Assembly (NCBI GenBank): GCA_002067965.1
Contig: MVRN01000012.1
Location: 1-39,892 of the forward strand
Reading direction: 5' to 3'
Source of the DNA: Pelotomaculum sp. PtaU1.Bin035
GTDB taxonomy: Bacteria; Bacillota; Desulfotomaculia; Desulfotomaculales; Pelotomaculaceae
DNA: 39,892 bases
Part shown: piece after piece, positions 25,570-39,892 of the stretch
How positions within the stretch are numbered: position 1 is the stretch's first letter
How the letters are laid out: every line of letters begins with the position of its first letter
Position numbers and translations under genes: made by a program
The notes under the pieces: model-generated
What the model was told of the DNA's origin: nothing
The model's database searches: none
What the model saw: only the letters and a program-made list of their open reading frames with translations

Positions 25570-25774
25570 TTCTTTCAAATTATTTTACAAATACGCTTTA
25601 TTAGCAGGTTACTTTGTATTATGATACTCCGTCTTAAAGTTATACGACTGTGATAAAGCCATTTTTTGCAGATATTAGAACTAAACTCCAGATATTAGAA
25701 ACTGAACTCACAAAATATTACTTTTACTCGAAAACGAAGTATACGGATATAAAAATTTTCAATTTAATTTTTAT

Positions 25775-25806
25775 TAAAGGTTCGCTAAAGGTTATGGGTT
25801 TATGAT
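25775..25806 (+). promoter_or_regulatory. Candidate OmpR-family operator and promoter for the Asp-box gene
   Basis: Two perfect direct repeats TAAAGGTT (25775-25782 and 25786-25793) have an 11-bp period, one helical turn, as usual for OmpR/PhoB-type regulators. TATGAT (25801-25806) lies 7 bp downstream as a -10 element. The repeats cover the -35 position, where no good hexamer exists. This is the layout of an activator-dependent promoter. An OmpR-type regulator is encoded 0.8 kb downstream. The binding itself is inferred. Confidence 0.5.
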
Positions 25807-25855
25807 GGTAAATGTAAGGCAGCTGCTTACAAAAAATTCTTGGAGGTATTACGTT

Positions 25856-26464
25856 ATGAAAAGCAAAATTTTATCAATCATGGAGGCAACAAAAAAGAAA
25901 GCGGCCGTTGCTCTTCTTTGCGGAGCGCTTATTACCACAGCAGGCGCCGGGGCGGCTTTAGCGGCAAACCCTGACACTTCCATGCTGTATAAAATTCAAG
26001 GCGGTATTGCAAGCTACTCCACGGACGATGGGAAAACCTGGAGTGAAAAAGCTCCCGACGGTGTAACGGTCAGCGAATCCGAAGACAGTAAATTTACTGT
26101 CTTTAACGGCCTCCCAACCCTTTCGCCGAAAGATGCTGAGGGGAAAAGCTTGCTGTGCAAAGTGGAAAACGGCCTTAGAAGCTTCTCCACGGACGGCGGC
26201 AAAACCTGGAGTAAAAAAGCTCCCGACGGTGTAACGGTCAGCGAATCCGAAGACGGTAAATTTACTGTTTTTAACGGCCTCCCGACTCTTTCGCCGAAAG
26301 ATGCTGAGGGGAAAAGCTTGCTGTGCAAAGTGGAAAACGGCGTTAGAAGCTTCTCCACGGACGGCGGCAAGACCTGGAGTGAAGAGGTGCCTGAAGGCGC
26401 AACAGTGACCGAAGGCGGCAAAGTCAGAATGATGAAGGTTGTTACGTCTGAAAATGCTAACTGA
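25856..26464 (+). CDS. Secreted Asp-box (BNR-like) repeat protein of unknown function
   Basis: The protein has 202 residues from the ATG at 25856, preceded by GGAGG nine bases upstream. The upstream ATG at 25802 has no site. A basic N-terminus and hydrophobic stretch (KAAVALLCGALITTAGAGAALAA) form a signal peptide cleaved near ALA-AN. The mature part is two complete 56-residue units plus a third partial one, each opening with an Asp-box (STDGGKTWS). Asp-boxes normally sit in beta-propeller hairpins, but two to three units are too few for a propeller. It may be a short beta-solenoid or surface-binding protein. A terminator separates it from a two-component system that probably controls it. I recognise no named family. 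Confidence 0.8.
   Translation: MKSKILSIMEATKKKAAVALLCGALITTAGAGAALAANPDTSMLYKIQGGIASYSTDDGKTWSEKAPDGVTVSESEDSKFTVFNGLPTLSPKDAEGKSLLCKVENGLRSFSTDGGKTWSKKAPDGVTVSESEDGKFTVFNGLPTLSPKDAEGKSLLCKVENGVRSFSTDGGKTWSEEVPEGATVTEGGKVRMMKVVTSENAN
26018..26410 (+). repeat. 168-bp tandem repeats inside the Asp-box gene
   Basis: Units begin at 26018, 26186 and 26354 with exactly 168-bp spacing. The first two copies differ by only a few bases, and the third diverges after about 55 bp. The near identity points to recent duplication or gene conversion within the gene. Confidence 0.92.
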
Positions 26465-26535
26465 TCGGTAATTTTACGGGAACTAATCAGCGCAAAACGA
26501 CGGATGCTGTCGCTTTGCATAGAATAAACGGAAAA

Positions 26536-26590
26536 GCATCCACAGCATAGGAGCCGTTATCAGTTCCTATGTTGCGGATGCATCTTATTT
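26536..26590 (+). terminator. Hairpin between the Asp-box gene and the response regulator
   Basis: GCATCC (26536-26541) pairs with GGATGC (26576-26581), continuing inward through a CATAGGA/TCCTATG stem with small mismatches. A T-rich tail follows. It probably ends the Asp-box transcript and may only reduce transcription into the regulator gene. Confidence 0.65.
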
Positions 26591-26625
26591 TTATATTTTA
26601 ATTTAATGACGAAGTAGGGATAGAA

Positions 26626-27306
26626 ATGAGGATTTTAATGGTGGAAGATGAGAAGTATATGGCTGAGGCCATCGCTCAAGTCTTAAAGAAGAATCATTAC
26701 AGCGTTGACTTGGCCTATGATGGAGAATACGGATTGGATTGCGGGAATTCCAATATTTATGATATCATCATCCTTGATATCATGCTTCCCAAAATGGACG
26801 GCATAAGCGTACTCAAAGAATTGCGTCGAAACGGCATTGAAACACCTGTTATTCTGTTGACGGCAAGAGGTGAAACCGAGGACAAGGTACGCGGCCTTGA
26901 CAGCGGCGCTGATGATTATTTGGCAAAACCATTCCACACTGACGAGCTGTTAGCTCGTTTGCGCGCATTGGGGCGCAGAAAAACAGAACTAATCAATGAC
27001 GGCAAGCTTAAATACGGAGATATTGAGCTGAATCCGCTTACCTTGCTGCTTGGCTGTGGAAACAAGGAGATTATACTGACTCTAAAAGAATCCCAATTAC
27101 TGGAATTGCTTATAAAAAGAAATAGCACTATTATTTCCAAAGAGATTATTATTGAAAAACTTTGGGGTTTTGATACCAGCGCCGAGGATAACCATGTGGA
27201 AACATATATATCCCTTTTAAGAAAGAAATTAACACACTTGGAATCTGATGTTTTCATTCGCACCATACGGGGCGCAGGATATGTCTTACAAACGTTAAAA
27301 GGATAG
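26626..27306 (+). CDS. OmpR/PhoB-family response regulator
   Basis: The protein has 226 residues. The receiver domain holds the acidic pair VEDE, the phosphorylation site Asp51 in IIILDIMLPKMDG and the lysine in LAKPF. The winged-helix DNA-binding domain (about 130-225) ends with VETYISLLRKKL and IRTIRGAGYVL. It should be phosphorylated by the kinase encoded 8 bp downstream. A paired 11-bp-spaced repeat upstream of the Asp-box gene is a likely binding site. The gene is more AT-rich than the spore genes to its left. Confidence 0.94.
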   Translation: MRILMVEDEKYMAEAIAQVLKKNHYSVDLAYDGEYGLDCGNSNIYDIIILDIMLPKMDGISVLKELRRNGIETPVILLTARGETEDKVRGLDSGADDYLAKPFHTDELLARLRALGRRKTELINDGKLKYGDIELNPLTLLLGCGNKEIILTLKESQLLELLIKRNSTIISKEIIIEKLWGFDTSAEDNHVETYISLLRKKLTHLESDVFIRTIRGAGYVLQTLKG

Positions 27307-27314
27307 GAAATAGA

Positions 27315-28667
27315 ATGTTCACAAAACTGCGCAACAAATTTCTCATACTGAATATGTCAATTACTTCGGTTGTGATGGTTGCCGCGTTTGCAATCATTTA
27401 TTTCATTACCTATAACAACATACACTCGGAGAATCTGAAAAAACTGAATTCACTGTCATCCGGCAAGCAAATAACCATACATTCGGAAGAACAAAATAAA
27501 TTGGACGCATCACCATCTGATAAGCCGATAGCAATAACAGGAGTCGGCTTGCCTGCTGATAAGGAAAAAGAAACCTTCTCCACCCTCGCAAATTTTTCTT
27601 TAGGTGATTCTCTTTCATTTAATATTGAAGTAGACGCGGATGGCAGAATTTGGGGAATCAACTCTTTTATTGCTTTGCCTGACGAAGCTTATTATAAAGC
27701 TGCCGAGACTGCCTGGAGCGACAAAAAAAACAATTCCACAATAACACTGGAAGGGAAACAATGGCAGTATACTATAACCCCAATACTCATGCATGTTATT
27801 ATCAGCGGACAACCATATACCTCCATCGAAGGCAAGTATCAGATTACATTTTTAGATGTCACGGAATCAAAAAATACGTTGCTGGCACTGCTGACCACTT
27901 TACTTTTAGTGGGCTTAATAATGCTTTTTGTTATTTTTATCATTAGCCTTTACTTTGCCAACCGGGCAATTAAACCGATAGCAGAAACATGGGAAAAACA
28001 GAAACAATTTGTTGCTGACGCATCTCACGAATTGAAAACACCGCTTACAATTATCAACGCCAACTATGATGCGCTTTTGGCAAATCAGAATGAAAGCATT
28101 AAAAGTCAAATAAAGTGGCTTGATTATATAAGAATCGGCAGTGACAGGATGGCAAAACTTATTAACGACCTTTTATCTTTAGCTAAAATAGAGGATGTAA
28201 ATTTAAAAGCACAAAAAAGGCCGTTTAATATTAGCAACGCTATTAATGATGTGATATTGTCGATGGAAGCTTTGGTGATAGAAAAAGGCATTAAGCTCCG
28301 TCATGCGATAGAGCCAGACATAATTATAAAAGGCGATCCGGAAAGAGTTAAACAAGTTGTCACGATTTTATTTGATAACGCTGTAAAATATACAAATAAT
28401 AACGGACAAATTGATATATTACTAAAAAAAGCAAAAAACAAAATTATATATTCTATAAAGAACAGTGGAAAAGGAATAGCAAAACAAGATTTGCCAAAAG
28501 TTTTTGACAGGTTCTACCGGGCCGATCCCTCCAGAACGCAGGAAACCGGCGGTTATGGTTTAGGGTTGTCAATTGCAAAGACAATTATAGACAGATTGGG
28601 CGGCAAAATAAATGTCACAAGTGTGGAAAATGAATGCACGACTTTTACTTTTACACTTGGACTGTAA
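27315..28667 (+). CDS. Membrane sensor histidine kinase
   Basis: The protein has 450 residues. There is a first membrane helix (about 10-32), an extracytoplasmic sensor domain of about 160 residues with no recognised fold, and a second helix (about 192-216, LLALLTTLLLVGLIMLFVIFI). The HisKA box has the phospho-accepting His238 in ADASHELKTPLTII, followed by the ATPase domain (VTILFDNAVKYTNNNG, FDRFYRADPSR, GGYGLGLSIAKTI). A HAMP domain is short or absent. It pairs with the response regulator 8 bp upstream. The signal may be linked to the secreted repeat protein, but that is inference. Confidence 0.94.
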   Translation: MFTKLRNKFLILNMSITSVVMVAAFAIIYFITYNNIHSENLKKLNSLSSGKQITIHSEEQNKLDASPSDKPIAITGVGLPADKEKETFSTLANFSLGDSLSFNIEVDADGRIWGINSFIALPDEAYYKAAETAWSDKKNNSTITLEGKQWQYTITPILMHVIISGQPYTSIEGKYQITFLDVTESKNTLLALLTTLLLVGLIMLFVIFIISLYFANRAIKPIAETWEKQKQFVADASHELKTPLTIINANYDALLANQNESIKSQIKWLDYIRIGSDRMAKLINDLLSLAKIEDVNLKAQKRPFNISNAINDVILSMEALVIEKGIKLRHAIEPDIIIKGDPERVKQVVTILFDNAVKYTNNNGQIDILLKKAKNKIIYSIKNSGKGIAKQDLPKVFDRFYRADPSRTQETGGYGLGLSIAKTIIDRLGGKINVTSVENECTTFTFTLGL

Positions 28668-28904
28668 TGTACGAAATAATCATCAGGCTCCCTAGCAGCC
28701 TGTCTAAATATTTAACTGATAGCAGGATTAATGGAACAAGATGTCGGAATATACAATATTATGATCAAAGGATATAAACCAATATGTGGAAGATTTAAAA
28801 TAATTAAATGTCTCTACAATTAACTAATTAAATTTTACCATTACCAGTTTTTTACAGTAAGCCGAAATATCCTGCTCAAGCAGAATACTCCTCAAAAAAA
28901 TATA
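28668..28904. other. AT-rich gap with no recognised gene
   Basis: The first part of the 436-bp gap after the kinase gene shows no convincing coding frame, hairpin with T tract, or repeat. It marks the left edge of the accessory island. Confidence 0.5.
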
Positions 28905-29040
28905 TGCTATGATAGGTATAATCGGTAGTATTTCCTAACCGGGTATGTGTTAGTTTTCTCCTAAGCTTGTCGTAGGTGTATCGTATTGGATTGTTTTACC
29001 ATCGGAGTACGGTAAACTTTTGGAGCGTCCGGTCTGGATC
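28905..29040 (-). pseudogene. Displaced RHS/YD-repeat core fragment
   Basis: On the minus strand, one frame reads YTYDKLRRKLTHTRLG followed by NTTDYTYHS, a clear YD-repeat signature. A second frame just upstream reads SKSLPYSDGKTIQY, so at least one frameshift separates them. The fragment lies directly downstream of the putative immunity gene. That is the position where displaced RHS core pieces commonly mark old toxin-tip exchanges. It has no start codon and cannot be functional by itself. Confidence 0.6.
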
Positions 29041-29103
29041 TGTCAATATAACCGTCCCCGCGACACCCGTAAAACACTACTCATTATAGGCCTGTGTTTC
29101 ATA

Positions 29104-29391
29104 TTAGAGTTGAATATTATTCCATTCCTCGTAACCTTTTTCAGTTAATTTAAACCAGTAATCTCTAATTATAAGGCTATCAGCATTGACGATATCAATT
29201 ATACTACTATTAGGAGGGTATTTTATTTTAATTACTGATTCATTTAGGAGTTCAAGTATTGTTTCTCTTAAAGCTTCATCTGTATGCGATACTCTATAGT
29301 ATTTTAAGTAATTCTTAATTTGAACTATGCTTTCTGAATCATCAACTAATGCATCAAGTATACTCTGACGCAAATTCATTTGTTTTTCCAA
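29104..29391 (-). CDS. Putative immunity protein for the RHS toxin tip
   Basis: The protein has 95 residues from a TTG with GGGAG eight bases upstream. It is acidic and helical, with a winged-helix-like C-terminus (YWFKLTEKGYEEWNNIQL). No family is recognised with confidence. It begins about 20 bp after the stop of the toxin tail (29412), the normal place for the cognate immunity gene of a polymorphic toxin. It is intact while its toxin gene is broken, consistent with retained protection. The immunity role is inferred from position only. Confidence 0.6.
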   Translation of the reverse strand: MEKQMNLRQSILDALVDDSESIVQIKNYLKYYRVSHTDEALRETILELLNESVIKIKYPPNSSIIDIVNADSLIIRDYWFKLTEKGYEEWNNIQL

Positions 29392-29411
29392 TTAATATTC
29401 TCCCTTTATTA

Positions 29412-29483
29412 CTACTGTTTTGGATAAGGGCGATAGTGTTGATCAATAATCTCACCATTACGATTTTTCAAAGTATGTTTCCA
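29412..29483 (-). pseudogene. 3' tail of the RHS toxin gene, cut off by the IS110 element
   Basis: The minus strand reads WKHT then LKNRNGEIIDQHYRPYPKQ and a TAG stop. Joined to the codon ending at 31120 across the IS, the frame runs ...TNKYTGEKV-WKHTLKN... without a gap. This completes the toxin C-terminus, so this tail and the large RHS frame to the right are one gene. Confidence 0.85.
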
Positions 29484-29499
29484 TAATTATGACCATTCC

Positions 29500-29770
29500 T
29501 TTCTGCGAAAGGCACAAAACGGAATGAAACCGTCGGCCCTCACGCGAAGTTTGTTGTACAATATCAGCGAGGATGCCGGCACACTACAGAGCACGTGGAG
29601 GGGAGTGGGCCCAGCGTTTCGCTGACCGAATAATTATGTGTGCCGGCCGCTCAGTGAAGCACAAATAAGTGGGACATTGAGCCCGTAAACTTATCTTTGT
29701 AAAGACGCTACTCGTTTTTTGTGTGAGCGGTCAGTCCCTGTCGGTATCCTCGTATTCTTTTACGAGGAGG
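29500..29770 (+). ncRNA. Candidate bridge RNA in the IS110 left end
   Basis: The non-coding left end is rich in hairpins, for example TGCCGGCACAC pairing with GTGTGCCGGC. IS110 elements encode a bridge RNA here whose two loops match the donor ends and the target. Three matches are visible. ATAATTATG (29630-29638) is complementary to the left end CATAATTAT (29482-29490). CGTTTC (29615-29620) equals the right-end sequence beside the core. AAGTTTG (29547-29553) is complementary to the right target half CAAACTT. The left target guide was not identified. The 8-mer ATAATTAT is self-complementary, which weakens that match somewhat. Confidence 0.55.
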
Positions 29771-29776
29771 TCGAAT

Positions 29777-31030
29777 ATGGCACTCAAAATCGTTTATCCA
29801 GTCTGCTGTGGCATCGACGTCCACAAGTCCTTCGTCGTAGCTTGTATCGCGGCAACCGACGACAAGGGCGTTACGACTTACCAACGGCGCCGGTTCTCTA
29901 CTTTCACCGGTGACCTCCGCCTGCTTGCCCAATGGCTTGCGGAGCACGGATGCCGGGATGTTTGTATGGAGTCTACGGGCAAATACTGGATACCCGTCTA
30001 CAACATGCTCGAATCCACCTGTAAGGTGGTTCTCGCTCATCCCAAATACGTCAAAGCCATCCGCGGCAAGAAAACCGACACCAAAGATGCCAAATGGATC
30101 GCCGATATCTTCAAGCACGATTTGGTCTCCGGCAGCTTTATCCCACCCTTTGCCATCCGGCAACTCCGCGACTTCATGCGCTACCGTGTCAAGTTGACTA
30201 GCTTCTCTGTCGGAGAGAAGAACCGCGCTCAAAATTGCCTTACCGTTTCCAATATCAAATTGGATGATGTCTTTTCTGATGTTTTTGGTAAAAGTGCTTC
30301 CGCTATTACTGAACAGTTGCTTGCGCATCCCGATGGGGACTTTGACGTTGCTCCGTTTATTCATCGTCGCTGCAAAGCATCACCGGACAAGGTCCAAGCT
30401 GCTGTTGACGGCTTGATGTGCTCCGAGCAGGCTGAAAAGCTAAAGATTATCCATTCCCACATGGATAGTCTTTAGCTCTGCAAGGCCAATCTTGAATCTG
30501 CCATCCTCTCCCTTGCCGAGCAGTTTCGTTCTCAATTTGAGCTGGTCATGACCGTACCGGGTATCCAACTGTTTTCCTCCATCGCTATTATTTCGGAAAT
30601 CGGCGTGGATATGTCCGTGTTCCCTACGGCCAAGCACCTTTGCTCTTGGGCGGGACTTACACCGCAAAACAACGAGAGTGCCGGCAAGAAAAAGACTACC
30701 CGTATCAGCCGTGCCGGAGCTTACATCAAGCCGCTTTTGGTTCAGTGCGCTCTTACCGTCTGCAATTCAGACAAGCACCCTGAAATCAAAAGTCGTTATC
30801 TTGCGCTCAAAAAGCGTCGTGGGCACAAGAAAGCCATCATTGCCATTTGCAGGATGTTGTTGACCGCGATCTACGCCATCCTCAAAAATTCCGAAGCCTA
30901 CAACCCCAATCTCTATAGAAAGGTGGTGTCCATTCCTGCTACCCGGGCTTTTACCGTTGAGCAGGCCGTCGCTTTTGTTCGACGTCACGGCTTTCTGGTC
31001 GTAGATTCCGATGGCGTTATCGCTTCTTAG
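29777..31030 (+). pseudogene. IS110 transposase with an in-frame TAG
   Basis: The frame has 417 sense codons from an ATG preceded by GAGGAGG. The N-terminal RuvC-like DEDD domain shows GIDVHKSF, CMESTGKYW and KTDTKDAKW. The C-terminal Tnp domain shows TVPGIQLFSSI, AGLTPQNNESAGKKK (catalytic-serine region) and ISRAGAYIKPLL. Codon 233 (30473-30475) is TAG, with the frame continuing perfectly on both sides. It splits the two domains into 232 and 184 residues. A CAG-to-TAG change is the simplest cause. The TAG is the last base triplet of a 13-bp inverted repeat (30440-30475). Without suppression the recombinase should be inactive. Confidence 0.85.
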
Positions 31031-31054
31031 TCCGATTATATTTTCTTTTTCAAT

Positions 31055-31083
31055 GTACCGTAATTGGATTACGGCACTTTTTT
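31055..31083 (+). terminator. Terminator after the IS110 transposase
   Basis: GTACCGTAAT (31055-31064) and ATTACGGCAC (31068-31077) pair with one mismatch around a TGG loop and are followed by six T residues. It lies within the short right end of the IS. Confidence 0.8.
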
Positions 31084-31117
31084 GCGCCCATTATCCGCTT
31101 CCGTTAGGTGTTCGTTT

Positions 31118-33557
31118 CAAACTTTTTCCCCCGTATACTTATTGGTGAATTCTTCTTCGATACTTTCACCACCTCTATTTCTTAACCCTGTTGCAGGTTC
31201 ACTGGAATATCCTGTCTCTTCCCAGTTTTCAGGGTTATTCTCTATATCTTTGAGTTTATTCCTAAATACTTCCTCTTCAGCCCAATAGCGGTCCCAAGCT
31301 TCCTTGGCTTCATTTGCAAGCTCCACAGTAGCTGCCACAGCCGCTGCGCCAACAGCTGCCGCAGCAGCAGTTGCTTCTGGAGCTGCCACTAAACCAACAC
31401 ATACGACAACTCGCCCTGAGGGATCAACATACAGCACCGGGTTATTCCCACAGTAAACATACCTATTCTGCGACAGCGGGTCGTTAAGATTCCCGTTGAA
31501 CGTATCTTGACTTAAGAACCTGCCGGTTATCGGGTCATAGTATCTTGCACGTAAGTAAATCAGACCGTTTGCATCGTAAGGCTCCCCGGCGAAACGGAAC
31601 GGGTTGTAAACACTCTCCGAAACCGAACGCGGACTACCGAAAGCATCGTATGTGTAACGGTTGAGGGGGTTGCCGTAAACATCGGTTATTACCGAAATGC
31701 TGCCTAGCCCATCCTGGTGGTAATATGCGATACCTGCGGGGTCAATCCTGCTCAGAAGCCTGCCAGCGTAGGTATAATTATTTGTATTTCCCGTATCATC
31801 CTTTTCTACGAGCAGGCGCGGTATTCCTGTGTTGATATCGTAAATATAACTATATTCGTCTGAGCCGTAGACTGAACCTGATACGCTCTGACTGAGACGG
31901 TTACCGTCGCCGTCGTAGGTGTACTGGATGGTTCGGGTTCCGTCGGAGAAGTTGATCAGCCGGTTTTCGTAGTCGTAATTATAACTGCAATTGTTGTAGG
32001 TGGCATCACTGACTGATGTCAGGTTGCCGTTAAGGTCGTAACCATAGGTATTGGCACCTGCTTGGATCAGGCGGTTGGCGTTATCATAGGTATAGGTAAC
32101 ACCGTTCGCGCTTGTTCTGTTGCCTGCCGGATCGTATGTGTAATTCACTGTCTGGTCGTCGGGATATTCTACCCTGGTTAGTTGATAAAGATCTTCATAG
32201 GTGTATTGGGTGGTGTTGCCTTGTTCGTCGGTCACGCTCAGCCTGTTACCCACGTTGTCCAGTGTATAGGCCGCCCTGGCGATGGCGCTCTGACCGTAAA
32301 CGTGCTCCAGCACTGTCAGGCGACCGCTAAGGTCGTAACCGTAGTTTACCATTATGCCATTGGGCAGATTTCCTGAAGCCTGTTGCCTGCTTCGTCGTAG
32401 GATATGCTTGCCGAATAGACCGAGTCGGATACCGATACGGGCAGGTTCAGGCTGTTATATGTGTAGCTTACCCGCAGGCCGCCGGGGTAGGTTAACGCTG
32501 TTATATTTCCGGCCTGGTCGTATTCGTAGTCTACGGAGTATACGTCTCTTGCTACCGATGTGAGCCGGTTTAAGCTGTCGTAGCTGTAGCCGGTGGTGCC
32601 TGCAGGGTCGACCATGGTTGTGCGGTTGCCGTTTGCGTCGTAAGTATAACTTATTCCGGTGTTATTCGGGTAGGTAATGTTCGTCAGGCGGTTGTTGGTG
32701 TTGTAGGTATAGTTTATTTCAGATCCGTCCGGCTTAGTCATGGATGACAGGTTACCGGCAGGGTCGTAAGTTCTATGGCTGGTGTTGCCCAGTGGGTCGG
32801 TTTCCCGCACCAGTCGGTTCAGCGCGTCGTAGGCGGCGGTAAAAGTCTGATTTTTAGCGTTGTTGACTGTTGTCATGTTGCTGTTATTGTCGTAGGTGTA
32901 GCTTGTGGTATGCCCCAGGGCATCGGTTACGGAGGCCAGTCTGTTTAACGGGTCATAGCCGAAGGTTGTGGTCCCACCGTTGGCGTCGGTGCTGTAGACG
33001 GCGTTGCCGACACTGTCATACTCGGTCGTGCTGATATGACCGAGTGGGTCGGTCACTGCAACCAGCCTGTTGTTGTCGTCATATGTGTATGTCCAACTGG
33101 CGCCGCGGGGGTCGGTGAGGCTAAGTCGATTGCCGGCCAGGTCATATGTGTAAGCGGTTGTGTGGTTTGCCGGGTCGGTTGCCGTGAGCAGCCTGGCGCA
33201 CTGGTCGTAGGTAAATGTGTCCGTGTTGCCGCGCCGGTCGGTCATGCTGGTTTTGTTGCCGAGTGGATCGTATTCTATAACTTCTGTGTTGCCAAGCGCA
33301 TCTGTTACATTGGTTATTCGATTCAAAGCGTCATAGGTATAGGTGGTGGTGTGTCCATTCCGGTCTGTTTTGGCAATCTGGTTGCCGTTGCCGTCGAGTG
33401 TGTAGGTTTCTGTGCTGCCGCTGGGATCGGTGGTTGATATTAACCGGTTGGGAAAATCGTAATTGTATGTGGTTGTGTGGTTGTTTGCATCTGTTACGGC
33501 AACCAGGTTGTTTTCGGCGTCGTAGTTATAGTTTGTCGTCCTGCCCAGGGGTTCTAT
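31118..33557 (-). pseudogene. RHS/YD-repeat polymorphic toxin gene, truncated and frameshifted
   Basis: Dozens of YD motifs (YTYDxxGNR, TSVTDALGH) run along the minus strand from 33557. The RHS core closes with RYYDPITGRFLSQD and NRYVYCGNNPVLYVDPSGR. A hydrophobic linker and a tip of about 100 residues follow (NPENWEETGY...GLRNRGGES...TNKYTGEKV). Three lesions are visible. The 5' end stops at an in-frame TGA (33558-33560) with no secretion domain before it. One C is missing from a run at 32362-32364 (restoring it gives ICPNGIMVNYGYD). The IS110 cuts the tip. Intact relatives are wall- or secretion-delivered toxins used between bacteria. The toxic activity of this tip is not recognised. Confidence 0.88.
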
Positions 33558-34019
33558 TCACATGGAACTGCTTTTTACCGTAGAAATCCTATTATGCTAC
33601 GCAAAATGGGAATGCAATAAATAAAGTGCCTAAGAAGCCCTATCCCACCACGAAATGGTTAGATACTTATTCAACGCCAGTCATCGGATTTGCTGTTACG
33701 AGCAACAATTCAAAGTCTATTTTGACATACTGGCGATAGGTTTTCAGGGTTCATCGAAATATTTTGGCCCCGCATCCATTTTTACGGCTGTGGGATTGGT
33801 GTTATTTATCTATAACAGCATAACTCATGTTTATATTTGAAAAGGCTACATTGGAAACGGTTATATTGTACCATTAAAACTGGAAGACAATGTTTATTAT
33901 GATAATAGGTTATATTAGCAGTTTCTTGGTGTCTACTCAGTCTTTCAAAAAGCATGAACCAGGAGATAATTGTTTACCTGTCTCATTGATTTCAATAAAC
34001 CAACCTTTTTCAAATCGGC
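33558..34019. other. Gap with no recognised gene
   Basis: These 460 bp separate the truncated 5' end of the RHS gene from the broken lipoprotein. Short plus-strand frames exist (up to about 60 residues) but have no ribosome site or recognisable motif. The abrupt end of YD repeats at 33557 suggests a recombination or deletion junction. Confidence 0.5.
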
Positions 34020-34494
34020 CTACTTATCAAAAAATTTAGGTCTTAACTTTTTCAATAAATCTGGCACAGCTACATCTTTATTTTCAGAACGTACATGTTT
34101 TTCCCAATAGTTATCATTTATCCGTTCCCAAAAGAAGGTTCCAACATCACCACTGTATACCCATACCCTGTCGTCTTTATCCCATAAGAAGAAAAGGGCA
34201 TCTCTTGTACGGTAAGCGTCCTCTGACGTATAGATAGCTAATGGTTCAGTAGCACCATTTGAAACATTTGTTATATAAAACCTGTTGTGTCTTACTTTCA
34301 ATGGTTTCTTCTTTAATATTCAACTGATATTTAGCTGAGGGTGATATAACAGGTTTATTCACAGTTGCTAATCCTGACAAATCGATATCACTATTAGTAT
34401 CAATCTCTTTTTCAGTGCATCCAGATAACAAGTATATTGTTGCTAATATGATTACAATTACCACGTGTAAAATCATCTTTAATTTCATTATCAA
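34020..34494 (-). pseudogene. Frameshifted lipoprotein gene
   Basis: The first frame gives MKLKMILHVVIVIILATIYLLSGC with a classic lipobox (LLSGC), then a charged linker to KEETIES. The matching second half, KVRHNRFYITNVSNGATEPL...DLLKKLRPKFFDK, lies in the other frame and overlaps near 34290-34306. One lost or gained base therefore split a lipoprotein of about 155 residues. Its product would have been anchored outside the membrane. It begins 10 bp after the broken gene upstream and could have been its partner or immunity protein. No family was recognised. Confidence 0.7.
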
Positions 34495-34503
34495 ACCTAC
34501 TTT

Positions 34504-34992
34504 CTATCGCCTATTATTTTCATCATTATATGGATTCATTTGGCTATTTGACAACCAACCTGATGTATATACCCCATCGCTACTCAATGTAGAGGTATCT
34601 GTCCAATAAATCCTTATAACGTAATCCGTTGGTGATGCAAAAGGTATTTTTTCTGCAAATTCACTCTTTGCTACATCAGTGCTGTATTGAAAATTGGGGT
34701 CTATTTCATCATTCCACTGGTAAGCAAAATTAATAGTTGAATTACCATATTCATCCTTTGAATATTTCCACTAATTCCAAATCCGCCGACATCATCAGAT
34801 GTTCCATGTAAGTATTGATAACCAATTATTTGCTCTCCATTTTCAATTTCCTGTTAATGCTACCGCATAATGACCAAAAACAGCTGGTATAAGTTGTCCA
34901 TGTTTTGACGGATAAAGTGACCAAAAATGAAAAAGTCCGTTAGTCCGCCTGTCATCTTTTTTGAATAATATTTGAGGGAGCCGGCCACCATT
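34504..34992 (-). pseudogene. Degraded gene, possible toxin tip or secreted protein
   Basis: Three frames on the minus strand join into one protein of about 160 residues. They read GGRLPQILFKKDDRRTNG...GQLIPAVFGHYAVALTGN; then ENGEQIIGYQYLHGTSDDVGG; then KDEYGNSTINFAYQWNDE...TSGWLSNSQMNPYND and a TAG at 34504. Frameshifts fall near 34845 and 34762, and an in-frame TGA blocks the 5' side at 34993-34995. The segment GHYAVALTGN resembles the histidine region of papain-like peptidases, but this is weak. It may be a tip domain cut from a larger RHS or wall protein. It directly precedes the broken lipoprotein. Confidence 0.6.
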
Positions 34993-35020
34993 TCAGTAAA
35001 CCGGCTTTGTGTCAACAAGA

Positions 35021-35275
35021 TTAGCTTTGTGATCTAAGACTTAGAAGATCTCCCCTGGCTTCATACAGCTTCTCCTTGAAAACTAGGCTGAACCAGGCGG
35101 TTCTGTTTTTGGTAGGCGGATACCGGCAGAATTTATCATAGACTTTACAAACGGCTTCGATCATCTCCTCCCGGCTAAATCCAAGATTCTCAGCTATTTG
35201 AGTTGCGAGTGGCAGCAGATCGAAGAAGTTTGTCCGAATAAAGTAATCCTCAAGGCTTAACTTTCGAGGGTTCAT
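35021..35275 (-). CDS. Small protein coupled to the transposon ATPase
   Basis: The protein has 84 residues and overlaps the ATPase stop by 4 bp (ATGA), so it is translationally coupled. The sequence (SLEDYFIRTNFFDLLPLATQIAENLGFSREEMIEAV...) is helical and soluble. I recognise no family. It looks like the third gene of the transposase-ATPase unit and may be an accessory or targeting protein. Confidence 0.65.
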   Translation of the reverse strand: MNPRKLSLEDYFIRTNFFDLLPLATQIAENLGFSREEMIEAVCKVYDKFCRYPPTKNRTAWFSLVFKEKLYEARGDLLSLRSQS

Positions 35276-36072
35276 GAGAGTTCCCCCTCAATGACCCGTT
35301 TCACCATCCGGTCATCGATGATGCGGTGACCATTCTGTGCGCCATACATCAGCGCATGCGTACATACTTTATTGATCAGTCTGGCTGTTCCGCTGGAAAA
35401 ACGGTAGATATTATCAATGGCTTGATCTGAAAAAATATCCTGGGTGGCTCCGGCATAAGCCAAATGCTGTTTAATATAGGCTCCTACTTCAGAGCGGTCA
35501 TAGTAATTCAGTTTGCACTGAAGATCAATTCGCTGCCGGATTGCAGCGTAAGATTGCAACTGCAAACGGTCCCAGAGCTCTGTTTGTCCTACCAAAATAA
35601 GGGCCATCGGACTTTGGGCATCCATATTCATGTTTAAGAGAAACCGGACTTCCTCCAGCATTTCTTTATCCAGAAGATGAGCTTCATCAACAACCACTAC
35701 CGGCTGCTGATGGTGGACCACCTGCATGAGTTCAACTTCCCGGTGCAGCTGCCGTTTGGCATCGCCCCGGTAGAACTTTGCTTCATGCCCCAGTTGTTCT
35801 AATAACCCCTTGTAAAAATGACGCGGTGTAAGCCTGGAGTCGGAGATATACAGCACTTTAAATTTAGCGGGGTTCAAGATTTCAGCATAACAGCGGATTG
35901 TTGTCGTTTTACCTGTTCCGCAGTCCCCGGTAATAACCGCAAACCATCTGCGTTCGGCTGCATATTGAAGCCTGCCAAGAGTTTCCTCTAATACAGCCGA
36001 TCTATATAATTCTTGGGTAGGAATATCCCTGGAAAAGGGAACTCGGCTTAAGTTGTAAAAGGTTTCAAACAT
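35272..36072 (-). CDS. ExeA/TniB-type AAA+ ATPase of a transposon
   Basis: The protein is about 266 residues from the ATG at 36072 with AAAGGAGG nine bases upstream. The ATG at 36081 is too close to that site. Walker A is GDCGTGKTTT near residue 48, and Walker B is PVVVVDEAHLL. A sensor-like VGQTELWDRL and arginine finger region RQRI follow. Such ATPases partner with Mu/Tn7/Tn5053-type DDE transposases and choose or license the target. It overlaps the end of the transposase fragment by 8 bp. It is intact although its transposase is truncated. Confidence 0.88.
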   Translation of the reverse strand: MFETFYNLSRVPFSRDIPTQELYRSAVLEETLGRLQYAAERRWFAVITGDCGTGKTTTIRCYAEILNPAKFKVLYISDSRLTPRHFYKGLLEQLGHEAKFYRGDAKRQLHREVELMQVVHHQQPVVVVDEAHLLDKEMLEEVRFLLNMNMDAQSPMALILVGQTELWDRLQLQSYAAIRQRIDLQCKLNYYDRSEVGAYIKQHLAYAGATQDIFSDQAIDNIYRFSSGTARLINKVCTHALMYGAQNGHRIIDDRMVKRVIEGELS

Positions 36073-36658
36073 GATTGCCATCCTCCTTTCCTACACTACG
36101 GAAGGAGATAGCTGAATTTTGACGGTTTTGCCTTTCTTTATTCTTGGATGTGGCTGCACTTAGCAGTCTGGAGGAACCTGCGGGCCTAATTTCCAAATGT
36201 TCCGGTAATCCCGGACGTTTTCCGACACGCGCACCGATGACCAGTTCTTGAACTTGCCAAGGGGTATAGCCCTCATATTCGAGCGTAAGCTCGGAGATAT
36301 CTGCCGGATCATAGACGACATCCACTGTGCAGCCGATGAAATTAAGACCAACTTCATATTTTTTACTCATAAAGTTAATACAACCGGACTTATCCACTTT
36401 TCGTGTTTCACAGTGTAAAAAAGCATTTGCCAAAACATCGGGTTCAATAAAGCGCAGGGGATGGCTGTCACTCTTAAAGGCTGCTTCCGGGCTTAAGTTG
36501 TTTTTTAAAGCAGTATGCGGTTTATTCTGGTAGCATTCACTAAGCCAGATATTAAATAACTCATTGAGTCGATCCAATGTTTTCGGTTTTTCCAAAGCAC
36601 ATTCTCTTAAGAAAGAATCCACAGTCTGGTTAAACTTTTCAACTTTGCCGGTCTTACG
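36065..36658 (-). pseudogene. 3' fragment of a DDE (rve/Mu-C) transposase
   Basis: About 197 codons remain. The surviving part starts within the catalytic core (RKTGKVEKFNQTVDSFLREC) and continues through NKPHTALKNNLSPEAAF and a Mu-type C-terminal beta barrel (KYEVGLNFIGCTVDVVYDP). The frame hits TGA just upstream of 36658, where the recombinase element's repeats begin, so the N-terminal two-thirds with the first catalytic acids is missing. The rest may lie beyond the recombinase element outside the window. Confidence 0.85.
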
Positions 36659-36662
36659 TCAA

Positions 36663-36762
36663 TCTTTACGTAATAAGGGTTATGTTAAGACTTTCGTTAT
36701 GTAAAGAAATGTGATTCCAAACGTGGAGATGCTCTGTTTTAGTGTTATATTTCTTTACATAA
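36663..36762. repeat. Left-end repeat array of the RIT element
   Basis: TTATGTAAAGAAAT (36697-36710) and ATTTCTTTACATAA (36749-36762) form a perfect 14-bp inverted repeat with a 38-bp centre. A third related copy, TCTTTACGTAA, lies at 36663-36673 at the junction with the transposase fragment. These are likely recombinase binding sites. Confidence 0.75.
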
Positions 36763-36813
36763 TAATCAGGAAATGTTACTCATGAATCAAACATTACAAG
36801 GAGGGTTTGATTT

Positions 36814-38064
36814 ATGGTAACTGACTTTAAAACATTGATTTCTTTATGCGAAGACGAGTTGAACAGTCGGGAGTATGCTGCTATACACCACGGTAGAATC
36901 AAAGCGGAATGGGAAAATCTTACCAATTGGATGAAATTGCACAATTACACGGATTTTTCTGAATCCATTGGGTTCCAGTATTGTGATGAAACTCTGGGAA
37001 CCCATATATTTATTGATAGGCTTACGCACAGTGAGCAGATACGGCTCCGTGCAGTCCGTATGCTGACTTCTTACCAGAAAGACGGCGATTTTGAATTCCG
37101 TACTCCGCGGATTGAAAGGATTTTTTATGGCAATACAGGCAATGAAATGTGCCTGTACCTGTCCTACCTCCGCAATGTACAGCATCTTTCGGAGAACACA
37201 ATCAGGAACAAGGAACAGTATCTATACGAATTCTTCTGTTATCTGGAAAAACATTTCCTGAAGCTGGATAATCTTAGTATTGAAGTTATGGAGGATTTTT
37301 TTAGCTCGTTGGATTATTCACTCGCCTCTAGGCATAACTGCAGCTCAACGCTGCGCATTTATTTTCGGTATGCGTATGATAATGGCATTACCGGAAAAGA
37401 CAGTTCGGTATTCGTATTGGAAGATAATTACAACCGCCATTGTAAGATTCCCACGACATACGATGAAGATGAAATTCGCAGGATTATCGCGTCGGTGGAA
37501 CGCTCATCCGCCACAGGGAAACGGGATTACCTGATTTTGCTACTCGCCGCTGAATACGGATGGCGATCCAGTGACATTGTGAACTTTCGGTTTAGTCAGA
37601 TAGACTGGGACAAAAATGTTATCCGTTTCAGTCAACATAAAACCGATATACCAGTAGAGTATCCGCTGCTTTCTTCAGTTGGTAACGCCATTATTGACTA
37701 TCTGAAGCATGGGCGTCCTATAACCGACTCAGAAGAAATCATCGTATCGGCAGAATCAGCAAAAAAGGGCCGGCCGCTTTCATCCCCGACCGTGCATTCC
37801 ATTGTGACGAAATACATGCATAAGGCAGATATCAAGAACTGGAAATACAAGAAACACGGCCCACATTCCCTTCGACACAGCCTGGCAACGAACATGTTGA
37901 AAAAGAATGTTTCCATGCCCATCATCAGTACCGTCCTTGGACATCAGAATACCGAGACCACCAAGGTGTATCTGAAAGTTGATACGGAAAAGCTGCGGCA
38001 ATGCCCGCTTTCTATGCCAGAGATGTACTCAAAGCATTACAAGGCAGGGAGGTGCGGAGCATGA
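36814..38064 (+). CDS. ritA: Tyrosine recombinase A of the RIT trio
   Basis: The protein has 416 residues with GGAGG nine bases before the ATG. An N-terminal SAM-like DNA-binding region (LSYLRNVQHLSENTIRNKEQYLYEFFCYLE) precedes the catalytic domain. That domain has the full residue set: Arg in YGWRSSDIVNF, Lys in QHKTD, HSLRH, LGHQNTETTKVY with the nucleophilic Tyr. It should cut and rejoin DNA at the element ends together with the next two gene products. Its stop overlaps the next ATG (38061-38064). Confidence 0.9.
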   Translation: MVTDFKTLISLCEDELNSREYAAIHHGRIKAEWENLTNWMKLHNYTDFSESIGFQYCDETLGTHIFIDRLTHSEQIRLRAVRMLTSYQKDGDFEFRTPRIERIFYGNTGNEMCLYLSYLRNVQHLSENTIRNKEQYLYEFFCYLEKHFLKLDNLSIEVMEDFFSSLDYSLASRHNCSSTLRIYFRYAYDNGITGKDSSVFVLEDNYNRHCKIPTTYDEDEIRRIIASVERSSATGKRDYLILLLAAEYGWRSSDIVNFRFSQIDWDKNVIRFSQHKTDIPVEYPLLSSVGNAIIDYLKHGRPITDSEEIIVSAESAKKGRPLSSPTVHSIVTKYMHKADIKNWKYKKHGPHSLRHSLATNMLKKNVSMPIISTVLGHQNTETTKVYLKVDTEKLRQCPLSMPEMYSKHYKAGRCGA

Positions 38065-39026
38065 GAAAACCCGAATTCAAATCCGTTTTTTCAGAGGAGA
38101 TGAATCAATATCTGGACTACATGGTAGCATCAGGACATAAGGAAGCAAGTTATCGCAACCATCTACGGCAGTTTGACTGGTTTTGTGTTGAACACGGGAT
38201 ACTTCAGCCGGTCTTTACTTGTCAGCATGCAGCGGAATGGATACAGAGGAAACAGAATGAGGCAAGCACCACGCATTATTCCCGGATCAATGGAATCAAA
38301 CAATTTCTGCTATATCTCAACCGCAGGGGTTATAGTGTCTTTGTGACGAGAGATATCAGTTTCAGACAGACGGATTTCCAACCGCACATATATAGTAAAG
38401 ATGAAATAACAAGATATTTTCATGCGGTTGATACATATGAATCATCCCGTAATCGCAAGGATGCCATCCAGTTTCCAATTCTTTTCCGGCTTCTGTACTG
38501 TAGTGGGACGAGAATTAATGAGACACTTGGCATCAGGAAACAGGACGTGGATCTTGGTAACGGCATAATCAGACTGTTTGAAACAAAGAACAATTGCGAG
38601 CGCTATATCGTCTTAAGCGACGAGCTTGCCGACTTGATGCGGCAATATGCAGAAAAATGCTTTTATCTTTTAGATGACGAGGAATACATATTCACAACAT
38701 CCAATGGAGGCCGATTGGGCGGCGATGTTATTTACAACTGCCATAGGTTGTTCCTTCAGAAGGCCGGAATTCCATATCTCGGGGGAGGCAAAGGGCCAAG
38801 ACTGCACGACTGGCGTCACACTTTTTCTGTACATTCCTTCAAACAGATGATTGATGCTGGGCTAGACATGTACGTGGCACTCCCCATCCTGTCCACATAT
38901 CTTGGACACAAGACGATCTATGCCACGGAACGGTATGTCAGGTTGACAATGAGCCTGTACCCGTATATCGAAGAACGTTTCAAAGATAAGATGGACAAGG
39001 TATTCGGGGAGGCTGGGAAATCATGA
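38061..39026 (+). CDS. ritB: Tyrosine recombinase B of the RIT trio
   Basis: The protein has 321 residues from the ATG at 38061, overlapping the stop of the first recombinase. The frame extends back to 38001, but the coupled ATGA start is preferred. Catalytic residues are complete: Arg in YCSGTRINETLGI, Lys in ETKNNCERY, LHDWRH, LGHKTIYATERY. The N-terminal arm-type domain is MNQYLDYMVASGHKEASYRNHLRQF. Its stop overlaps the third gene by 4 bp (39023-39026). Confidence 0.9.
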   Translation: MRKPEFKSVFSEEMNQYLDYMVASGHKEASYRNHLRQFDWFCVEHGILQPVFTCQHAAEWIQRKQNEASTTHYSRINGIKQFLLYLNRRGYSVFVTRDISFRQTDFQPHIYSKDEITRYFHAVDTYESSRNRKDAIQFPILFRLLYCSGTRINETLGIRKQDVDLGNGIIRLFETKNNCERYIVLSDELADLMRQYAEKCFYLLDDEEYIFTTSNGGRLGGDVIYNCHRLFLQKAGIPYLGGGKGPRLHDWRHTFSVHSFKQMIDAGLDMYVALPILSTYLGHKTIYATERYVRLTMSLYPYIEERFKDKMDKVFGEAGKS

Positions 39027-39892
39027 AGACGACTGACTTTGCATTGTATTTGAACAGATATTTCACCGTTTATCTACCCAATGAGAGCGGCAGTACGCCA
39101 ATGACCATTGATTCATACAGATACGCATTCATACTCTACTTGACATACATGCAGGAAGAACTCCTTATATCCGCAGACAGGATACAGATATCTGACCTGA
39201 CCCATAAGAACGTTTTGCTGTTCCTGGAATGGCTTCAGGAGCAGCGGCAGAACGGTATAGCGACAAGAAACCAACGGCAGGCCGCCATCAACAGCTTTGT
39301 AAGGTTTCTTATGTACGAATTTCCAGAGCATTTGGATGAATATCAGCGCATCCTTGGGATTCCTATAAAAAAAGCCCCGCAGAAAGAAATATCCTATATG
39401 AAAACAGATGGGGTAAAGTTGCTCATGGTTCAGGTGGATGTTGAATCTTCTGGCGGTCTGCGCGATTATGTCATGTTGTCCCTTCTTTATACGACTGGTT
39501 TGCGTGTCAGTGAACTCATAAACATCCGGGTAAAAGACCTGTCCCTTCATGTACCGTACACGCTCCTAATCCATGGAAAAGGGCAGAAAAGCCGTTATGT
39601 CCCCCTTATGAGGAATATCATTCCCTTCATACAGAAATACCTGGCTCAAGAGGGATATGACAGGCAGGAAAAGCTGGACGAATGGCTGTTTAAAAATCAT
39701 ATGAATACTCAGTTCACCAGACAGGGTATCAACTATCTCGTCAGTAAATATGCGAAACGTGCTCGGGAAATCAATCCGGAGATAATCCCAAAGGATTTCA
39801 GTCCCCACAAAATGAGACATTATGGTGAGAGATATAAAATGGTGAGTGACGGCAGCAAACCAGCCAAACCAGCAAGTTGTTTATCGATTCAC
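39023..39892 (+). pseudogene. ritC: Tyrosine recombinase C of the RIT trio, disrupted and running off the window
   Basis: The frame is open to the window edge (290 codons). Residues 1-266 are a normal recombinase: TIDSYRYAFILYLTYM, TTGLRVSELINI with the Arg, HGKGQKSRYVPL with the Lys, FSPHKMRH with the HxxR pair. After that (about 39820) the sequence becomes YGERYKMVSDGSKPAKPA, unlike any recombinase, so the second histidine and catalytic tyrosine are absent. An inserted sequence probably begins here. Neither other frame resumes the family sequence within the 70 bp left. Confidence 0.7.

Follow-up and report, generated by a model that had tools for sequence, protein, structure and literature searches.

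An exported Asp-box repeat protein and a two-component system form a putative autoregulated cassette in Bacillota

To our knowledge, few accessory proteins have been described for the sensor kinases of Gram-positive bacteria. Regulators of the PhoB/OmpR type activate transcription from direct repeats 11 bp apart, located in place of the -35 element. The closest described system is SaePQRS of Staphylococcus aureus, in which an exported accessory gene comes first, followed by the genes for an OmpR-type regulator and a kinase, the promoter upstream of the accessory gene is autoactivated, and the accessory protein modulates the kinase; SaePQ serves as the model for negative feedback on a kinase (PMC8774646, PMC12327003). 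Proteins with Asp-box (BNR) beta-propellers, e.g. bacterial sialidases, carry the motif S-x-D-x-G-x-T-W at blade-like spacing, and the motif reportedly has a structural role, with ligand binding being very unlikely (PMC2716378).

The window analysed here is a contig of 39,892 nucleotides assigned to Pelotomaculum sp. PtaU1.Bin035. It contains three adjacent genes in the same order as SaePQRS, encoding an exported Asp-box repeat protein (REP), a response regulator (RR) and a histidine kinase (HK) (Table 1). The likeness may extend to an autoactivated promoter, as judged from a conserved operator, and by analogy a modulation of the kinase by REP can be proposed. There are also clear differences. 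SaeP is a lipoprotein with a membrane partner, SaeQ, unlike REP; the outer loop of SaeS has 9 aa, against about 150 residues in the outer domain of HK; and SaeR controls many genes, whereas RR apparently controls mainly its own locus.

Table 1. Features of the REP-RR-HK locus (positions in the window)
Feature	Position	Strand	Basis
Operator TTAAAGGTTCGCTAAAGGT, two half-sites 11 bp apart, in -35 place	25774..25792	+	Gap-free alignment of 15 promoters
-10 hexamer TATGAT, 8 nt past operator	25801..25806	+	Same register in 15/15 loci
Dyad GTAAGGCAGCTGCTTAC, at or near predicted transcript start	25814..25830	+	Recurs with symmetric changes at same place
REP, exported Asp-box repeat protein, 202 aa	25856..26464	+	ORF, RBS, Pfam BNR, relatives beside orthologous two-component systems
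REP signal peptide or signal anchor	25856..25963	+	Profile matches to M56 proteins; topology by eye
Asp-box 1, STDDGKTW	26018..26041	+	REP residue 55
Asp-box 2, STDGGKTW	26186..26209	+	REP residue 111
Asp-box 3, STDGGKTW	26354..26377	+	REP residue 167
Terminator-like hairpin between REP and RR, then T-rich stretch	26536..26581	+	Strong hairpin in this gap, 9/9 loci
RR, OmpR/PhoB-type response regulator	26626..27306	+	PF00072 and PF00486
HK, sensor histidine kinase	27315..28667	+	PF00512 (HisKA) and PF02518 (HATPase_c)
HK extracytoplasmic sensor domain, predicted mixed alpha/beta (PAS- or Cache-like)	27414..27850	+	AlphaFold pLDDT 76

RR and HK belong to the OmpR-type two-component systems, with a receiver and a winged-helix DNA-binding domain in RR, and HisKA and HATPase_c domains in HK, all of which pass the Pfam cut-offs. 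The sensor domain of HK, which covers residues 34-180, has no Pfam match, and its PAS/Cache-like matches in the PDB are weak, none of them at E<=0.001. The gap between the REP and RR genes holds a strong hairpin in all nine loci examined, although the one in the window is not called in a strict terminator scan. Because this terminator-like hairpin comes after REP, it is rather probable that REP is made in excess over RR and HK.

The REP gene starts with an ATG at position 25856, preceded by the ribosome-binding site GGAGG at position 25842, and ends at position 26464. A longer open reading frame listed from position 25802 was rejected, since its beginning falls inside the -10 hexamer. The first 36 or so residues resemble, by eye, a Sec signal peptide or signal anchor, with a charged N-region, a hydrophobic core and the sequence ALA-AN. 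The three Asp-boxes follow each other at a period of exactly 56 residues. A preliminary description of this DNA had noted an exported protein of near-identical 56-residue Asp-box units beside an OmpR/kinase pair; export, period and neighbourhood hold, but the units are similar rather than near-identical, as units 1 and 2 share 88% of their DNA and about 80% of their protein sequence and unit 3 is degenerate past its Asp-box. The Pfam BNR/Asp-box match exceeds its cut-off, and no whole-protein family fits REP. The suggestion that REP is a secreted ligand-binding protein is speculative, and for the Asp-box itself a structural role is reported (PMC2716378).

One way to read these repeats is that REP forms an Asp-box beta-propeller, as a single chain or a homo-oligomer, with an enzymatic or glycan-binding role. 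The unit of 56 residues has the size of a blade, and besides the Pfam match there are weak PDB profile matches, which fall on the Asp-box parts of sialidases. The preliminary description had held that there are too few units for a propeller. This objection is not decisive, because WD40 fragments with one to six blades can assemble as homo-oligomers that close into rings (PMC6805158), so that a propeller can be considered in spite of the few units. Against it, the AlphaFold model of REP shows isolated hairpins where the Asp-boxes lie and hardly any other structure (pLDDT 50, too uncertain for the model to be used as a fold-search query), no catalytic region is found beyond the repeats, and the relatives of REP have 1 to 5 Asp-boxes. 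On balance we regard a propeller as very improbable. REP and its relatives differ from the sialidase-type proteins in their low unit number and in having neither an enzyme domain nor a predicted propeller.

The promoter of REP has perfect TAAAGGTT repeats (25775-25782 and 25786-25793) at a spacing of 11 bp just upstream of TATGAT and has no -35 hexamer, exactly as previously described. When the 19-mer operator was placed by best match alone in the promoters of 15 loci, leaving the -10 out of the fit, the promoters aligned without gaps, with 12 to 19 of the 19 positions matching, and the 8-nt spacer and the -10 shared the same columns in every one of them. Even the weakest operator (12/19, in genome G219) has its repeats 11 bp apart. 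A chance origin of the repeats was rejected, since the operator recurs at 14 other loci with equal spacing and a reversed control pattern is never found. The arrangement resembles direct-repeat activation of the PhoB/OmpR type, in which an OmpR-family regulator likewise uses two half-sites 11 bp apart that replace the -35, but the half-site sequence is different, and strict patterns reveal no regulon beyond the locus. In a scan of 12 genomes with the strict pattern AAGGT-N6-AAGGT-N5-9-TATNAT, the cassette locus was the sole match in eight genomes, the other four had none, and the reversed pattern gave no matches at all. A second scan with a 17-mer, allowing up to 2 mismatches, recovered the REP promoter and, beside it, a small number of weak sites that are about as frequent as in the control, so that the cassette usually provides the one strong match per genome. 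A wider regulon was rejected at the level of these patterns, the secondary sites with 1-2 mismatches being few and near the control count; those inspected closely (in G056, G001 and G011/G016) fall within coding genes. As both scans find little else above control, the strict motif appears nearly private to the cassette, and the two-component system appears to control almost nothing beyond its own operon and REP, although weaker RR sites may occur elsewhere.

From about the predicted transcript start, the leader contains a dyad of 17 nt, GTAAG-N-(6-bp palindrome)-CTTAC. Its centre varies symmetrically between loci (CAGCTG, CGGCCG, TGGCCA), the variants retain partial pairing, and exact GTAAGGCAGCTGCTTAC is found once per genome in the genomes that have it; it is absent from the Seinonella promoter. 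Folded as RNA, the dyad gives a predicted hairpin that is not robust for all leaders, so it may equally well be a second DNA operator or a leader stem. No Rfam element was matched within the window.

Relatives of the cassette were sought by scanning genome contigs and whole genomes. REP adjoins an orthologous RR/HK pair in 15 loci of Clostridia and Bacilli, comprising Desulfotomaculaceae and relatives, Anaerosolibacter, a Clostridiaceae MAG, Paenibacillaceae, Seinonella and others. These are the window locus (also G001), L001 (Anaerosolibacter), L002 (Gordonibacillus), L003 (Clostridiaceae MAG), L004 and L005 (Paenibacillus), L006 (Seinonella), L011/G018 (Pelotomaculum), the loci in G056, G103, G219, G568, G516 and G590, and L183, on a contig of a viral collection. 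Identity to the window proteins is 61-88% for RR and 29-58% for REP. An exported accessory gene is thus linked to the two-component system across species, as in two-component systems with auxiliary proteins. The order of genes differs in Paenibacillus L004, where REP lies downstream of the two-component system, yet has its own operator. By eye, no further genes are common to the surroundings of the cassettes.

Conversely, when strong HK orthologs were defined by a profile of the outer domain (E<1e-60), seven were found in the sampled genomes and REP adjoins six of these. For the seventh, in G315, no REP is present in the roughly 0.9 kb from the contig start to RR, but TTAAAGGTTTGTTAAAGGT and TATTAT directly precede the RR gene, and this promoter is one of the 15 that were aligned. 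As this system keeps the operator without REP, the site belongs to the two-component system, which presumably works there without REP. No strong ortholog was therefore found that lacks both the repeat gene and the operator. With 15 linked loci and the operator kept in 15/15 promoters, the earlier proposal that the adjacent two-component system controls REP is very probably correct, and this control is likely to be a dedicated one. More distant kinases (E>=1e-42) have neighbours of the VTC, DUF4956 or CotH-like kind in most of the loci read, and no REP; such related two-component systems were set aside as a separate group. Loci L124-L135 and L139-L141 represent this separate conserved neighbourhood, with RR/HK genes mostly next to VTC-like, DUF4956-like and CotH-like genes (by eye).

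The distribution of the cassette is patchy: matches were found in 6 of 150 relatives, in 2 of 10 genomes belonging to the G056 family, and in 11 of 104 belonging to the G497 family, some of the latter being just Asp-box or M56 matches. The RR of another Pelotomaculum from the same family is more distant from the window RR than is that of Anaerosolibacter, which suggests that the cassette has spread by transfer. Among viral contigs, L183 is the one real cassette, and its contig has transposases; the sole match of the operator pattern in these contigs was judged to be due to chance because it lies inside a phage gene. In plasmids there were only weak Asp-box matches, in Enterococcus. Two loci are irregular. 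In L180 (4631-4939) a relic open reading frame joins the first part of REP directly to the beginning of HK, which is what a deletion inside a REP-RR-HK arrangement would produce. In L138 (6717-7501; G103) REP is split into two open reading frames and the RR match is split too, by decay or an assembly error.

Two observations point to a link between REP and the kinase. Firstly, the HK outer domain of L183 contains VRMEDVTKYSTDGGQTWG, an Asp-box (STDGGQTW) in a REP-like context, near the position of the loop between the two long strands in the predicted structure of the window HK, while none of 35 distinct other HKs scanned has an Asp-box. As the RR of L183 is truncated, this cassette may be decaying and its kinase Asp-box a decaying accident. 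Secondly, REP distances follow sensor-domain distances beyond those of RR (partial r=0.41, permutation p=0.017, 11 loci with complete HKs; partial r = 0.58 for all 13 loci), in tests that cover 9-13 loci and whose permutations leave shared ancestry in place. This tracking resides in the repeat part of REP (r=0.48, p=0.006, 11 loci with complete HK) and not in its N-terminus (r=0.02), and is weaker with the kinase core (r=0.32, p=0.08). The correlation of sensor domain and kinase core given RR is about equally strong (r=0.48), so general joint or fast evolution may account for some of the signal. The co-divergence of REP and sensor is suggestive, and REP may contact HK, with either direction of effect; the chance of this seems to us slightly below even. 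The range of 1 to 5 Asp-boxes fits only loosely with a precise co-sensor.

The recurrence of the cassette in distantly related Bacillota, with its control site nearly constant, suggests that the switch has the exported protein as a third functional component. Together with the data above, this leads us to propose, at about an even chance, that REP, RR and HK form an autoregulated three-component cassette in which REP is the main product and a probable modulator of the kinase. The outer domain of HK would read an envelope or extracellular condition, and phosphorylated RR would bind the two TAAAGGT half-sites, 11 bp apart at the -35 place, to activate the promoter in the manner of PhoB-like class II activation. 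The hairpin past REP would ensure an excess of this protein, with read-through supplying RR and HK and so closing a feedback loop. REP would then be exported as the main product of the switch, and would probably act on the outer domain of HK, most likely in a feedback role like that of SaeP/SaeQ towards SaeS.

A simpler scheme, which we consider unlikely but worth attention, has REP as output alone, i.e. a surface protein with a protective or adhesive role that its dedicated two-component system switches on when needed and that has no effect on the kinase. Local resistance systems similarly have essentially one strong target, the hairpin past REP favours REP production, and a varying repeat number fits a surface repeat protein; the Asp-box inside the L183 sensor and the co-divergence with the sensor, however, suggest contact. 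Contact could also mean that REP, whole or cut into units, is itself the ligand sensed by HK in an autocrine or density-dependent positive loop. Autoregulation with its own locus as almost sole target, multi-copy units that are similar within a gene, the co-diverging repeat part and a possible tethered copy in one sensor agree with such a loop, but neither a dedicated protease nor an exporter is encoded alongside, the conserved part is a structural motif rather than a variable signal, and a pheromone circuit lacking another target would be of little use, which makes this improbable. The proposed three-component cassette is compact, patchily distributed in Bacillota and seems to have nearly one target promoter, so that the effect of an exported helper on its kinase could be tested with a single reporter. 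Among the papers searched, we found none in which an Asp-box protein is connected to a histidine kinase in such a way.

A further similarity concerns receptors of the M56 (BlaR1) type. Residues 1-40 of REP match, by profile, the last transmembrane segment of M56 proteins in G454, G413, G484, G007 and G518, each of which is encoded next to a BlaI-like gene. In the G454 protein, SSDGGKTW directly follows this segment. The combination of a last transmembrane segment and an outer domain may be shared, with the match of residues 1-40 seen in sequence and the topology read by eye. REP differs in having no M56 metalloprotease domain, which the matching proteins possess, and in having a histidine kinase as partner instead of a repressor. 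The likeness may reflect common descent, or a membrane segment that arose by convergence. REP could be a freed receptor ectodomain, in which an Asp-box outer module, together with its membrane segment, is common to BlaR1-type protease receptors and the HK system and signals by docking on the outer domain of the kinase, a piece having become part of the kinase in L183; we hold this to be doubtful. The M56 match would also suggest that sensory outer modules can pass between protease receptors and kinases. In G413, two free small Asp-box proteins (L159, 1456-3087), encoded close to the M56 gene, resemble the outer part of the M56 protein of that genome.

Over about 35 kb, the window contig (1-39892) matches contig C15 of G001 with 100% identity. 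Contig C33 of G000 has its own version (72-83%) of the same sporulation block, in which the similarity stops just short of the cassette. The placement of the window contig in G000 is therefore probably a binning error, its true source being G001 or a very close relative. Past the cassette (28668-39892) lies a variable region with, by eye, an IS110-like transposase in two pieces, YD/RHS-type repeat open reading frames, a transposon-type ATPase and three open reading frames resembling tyrosine recombinases.
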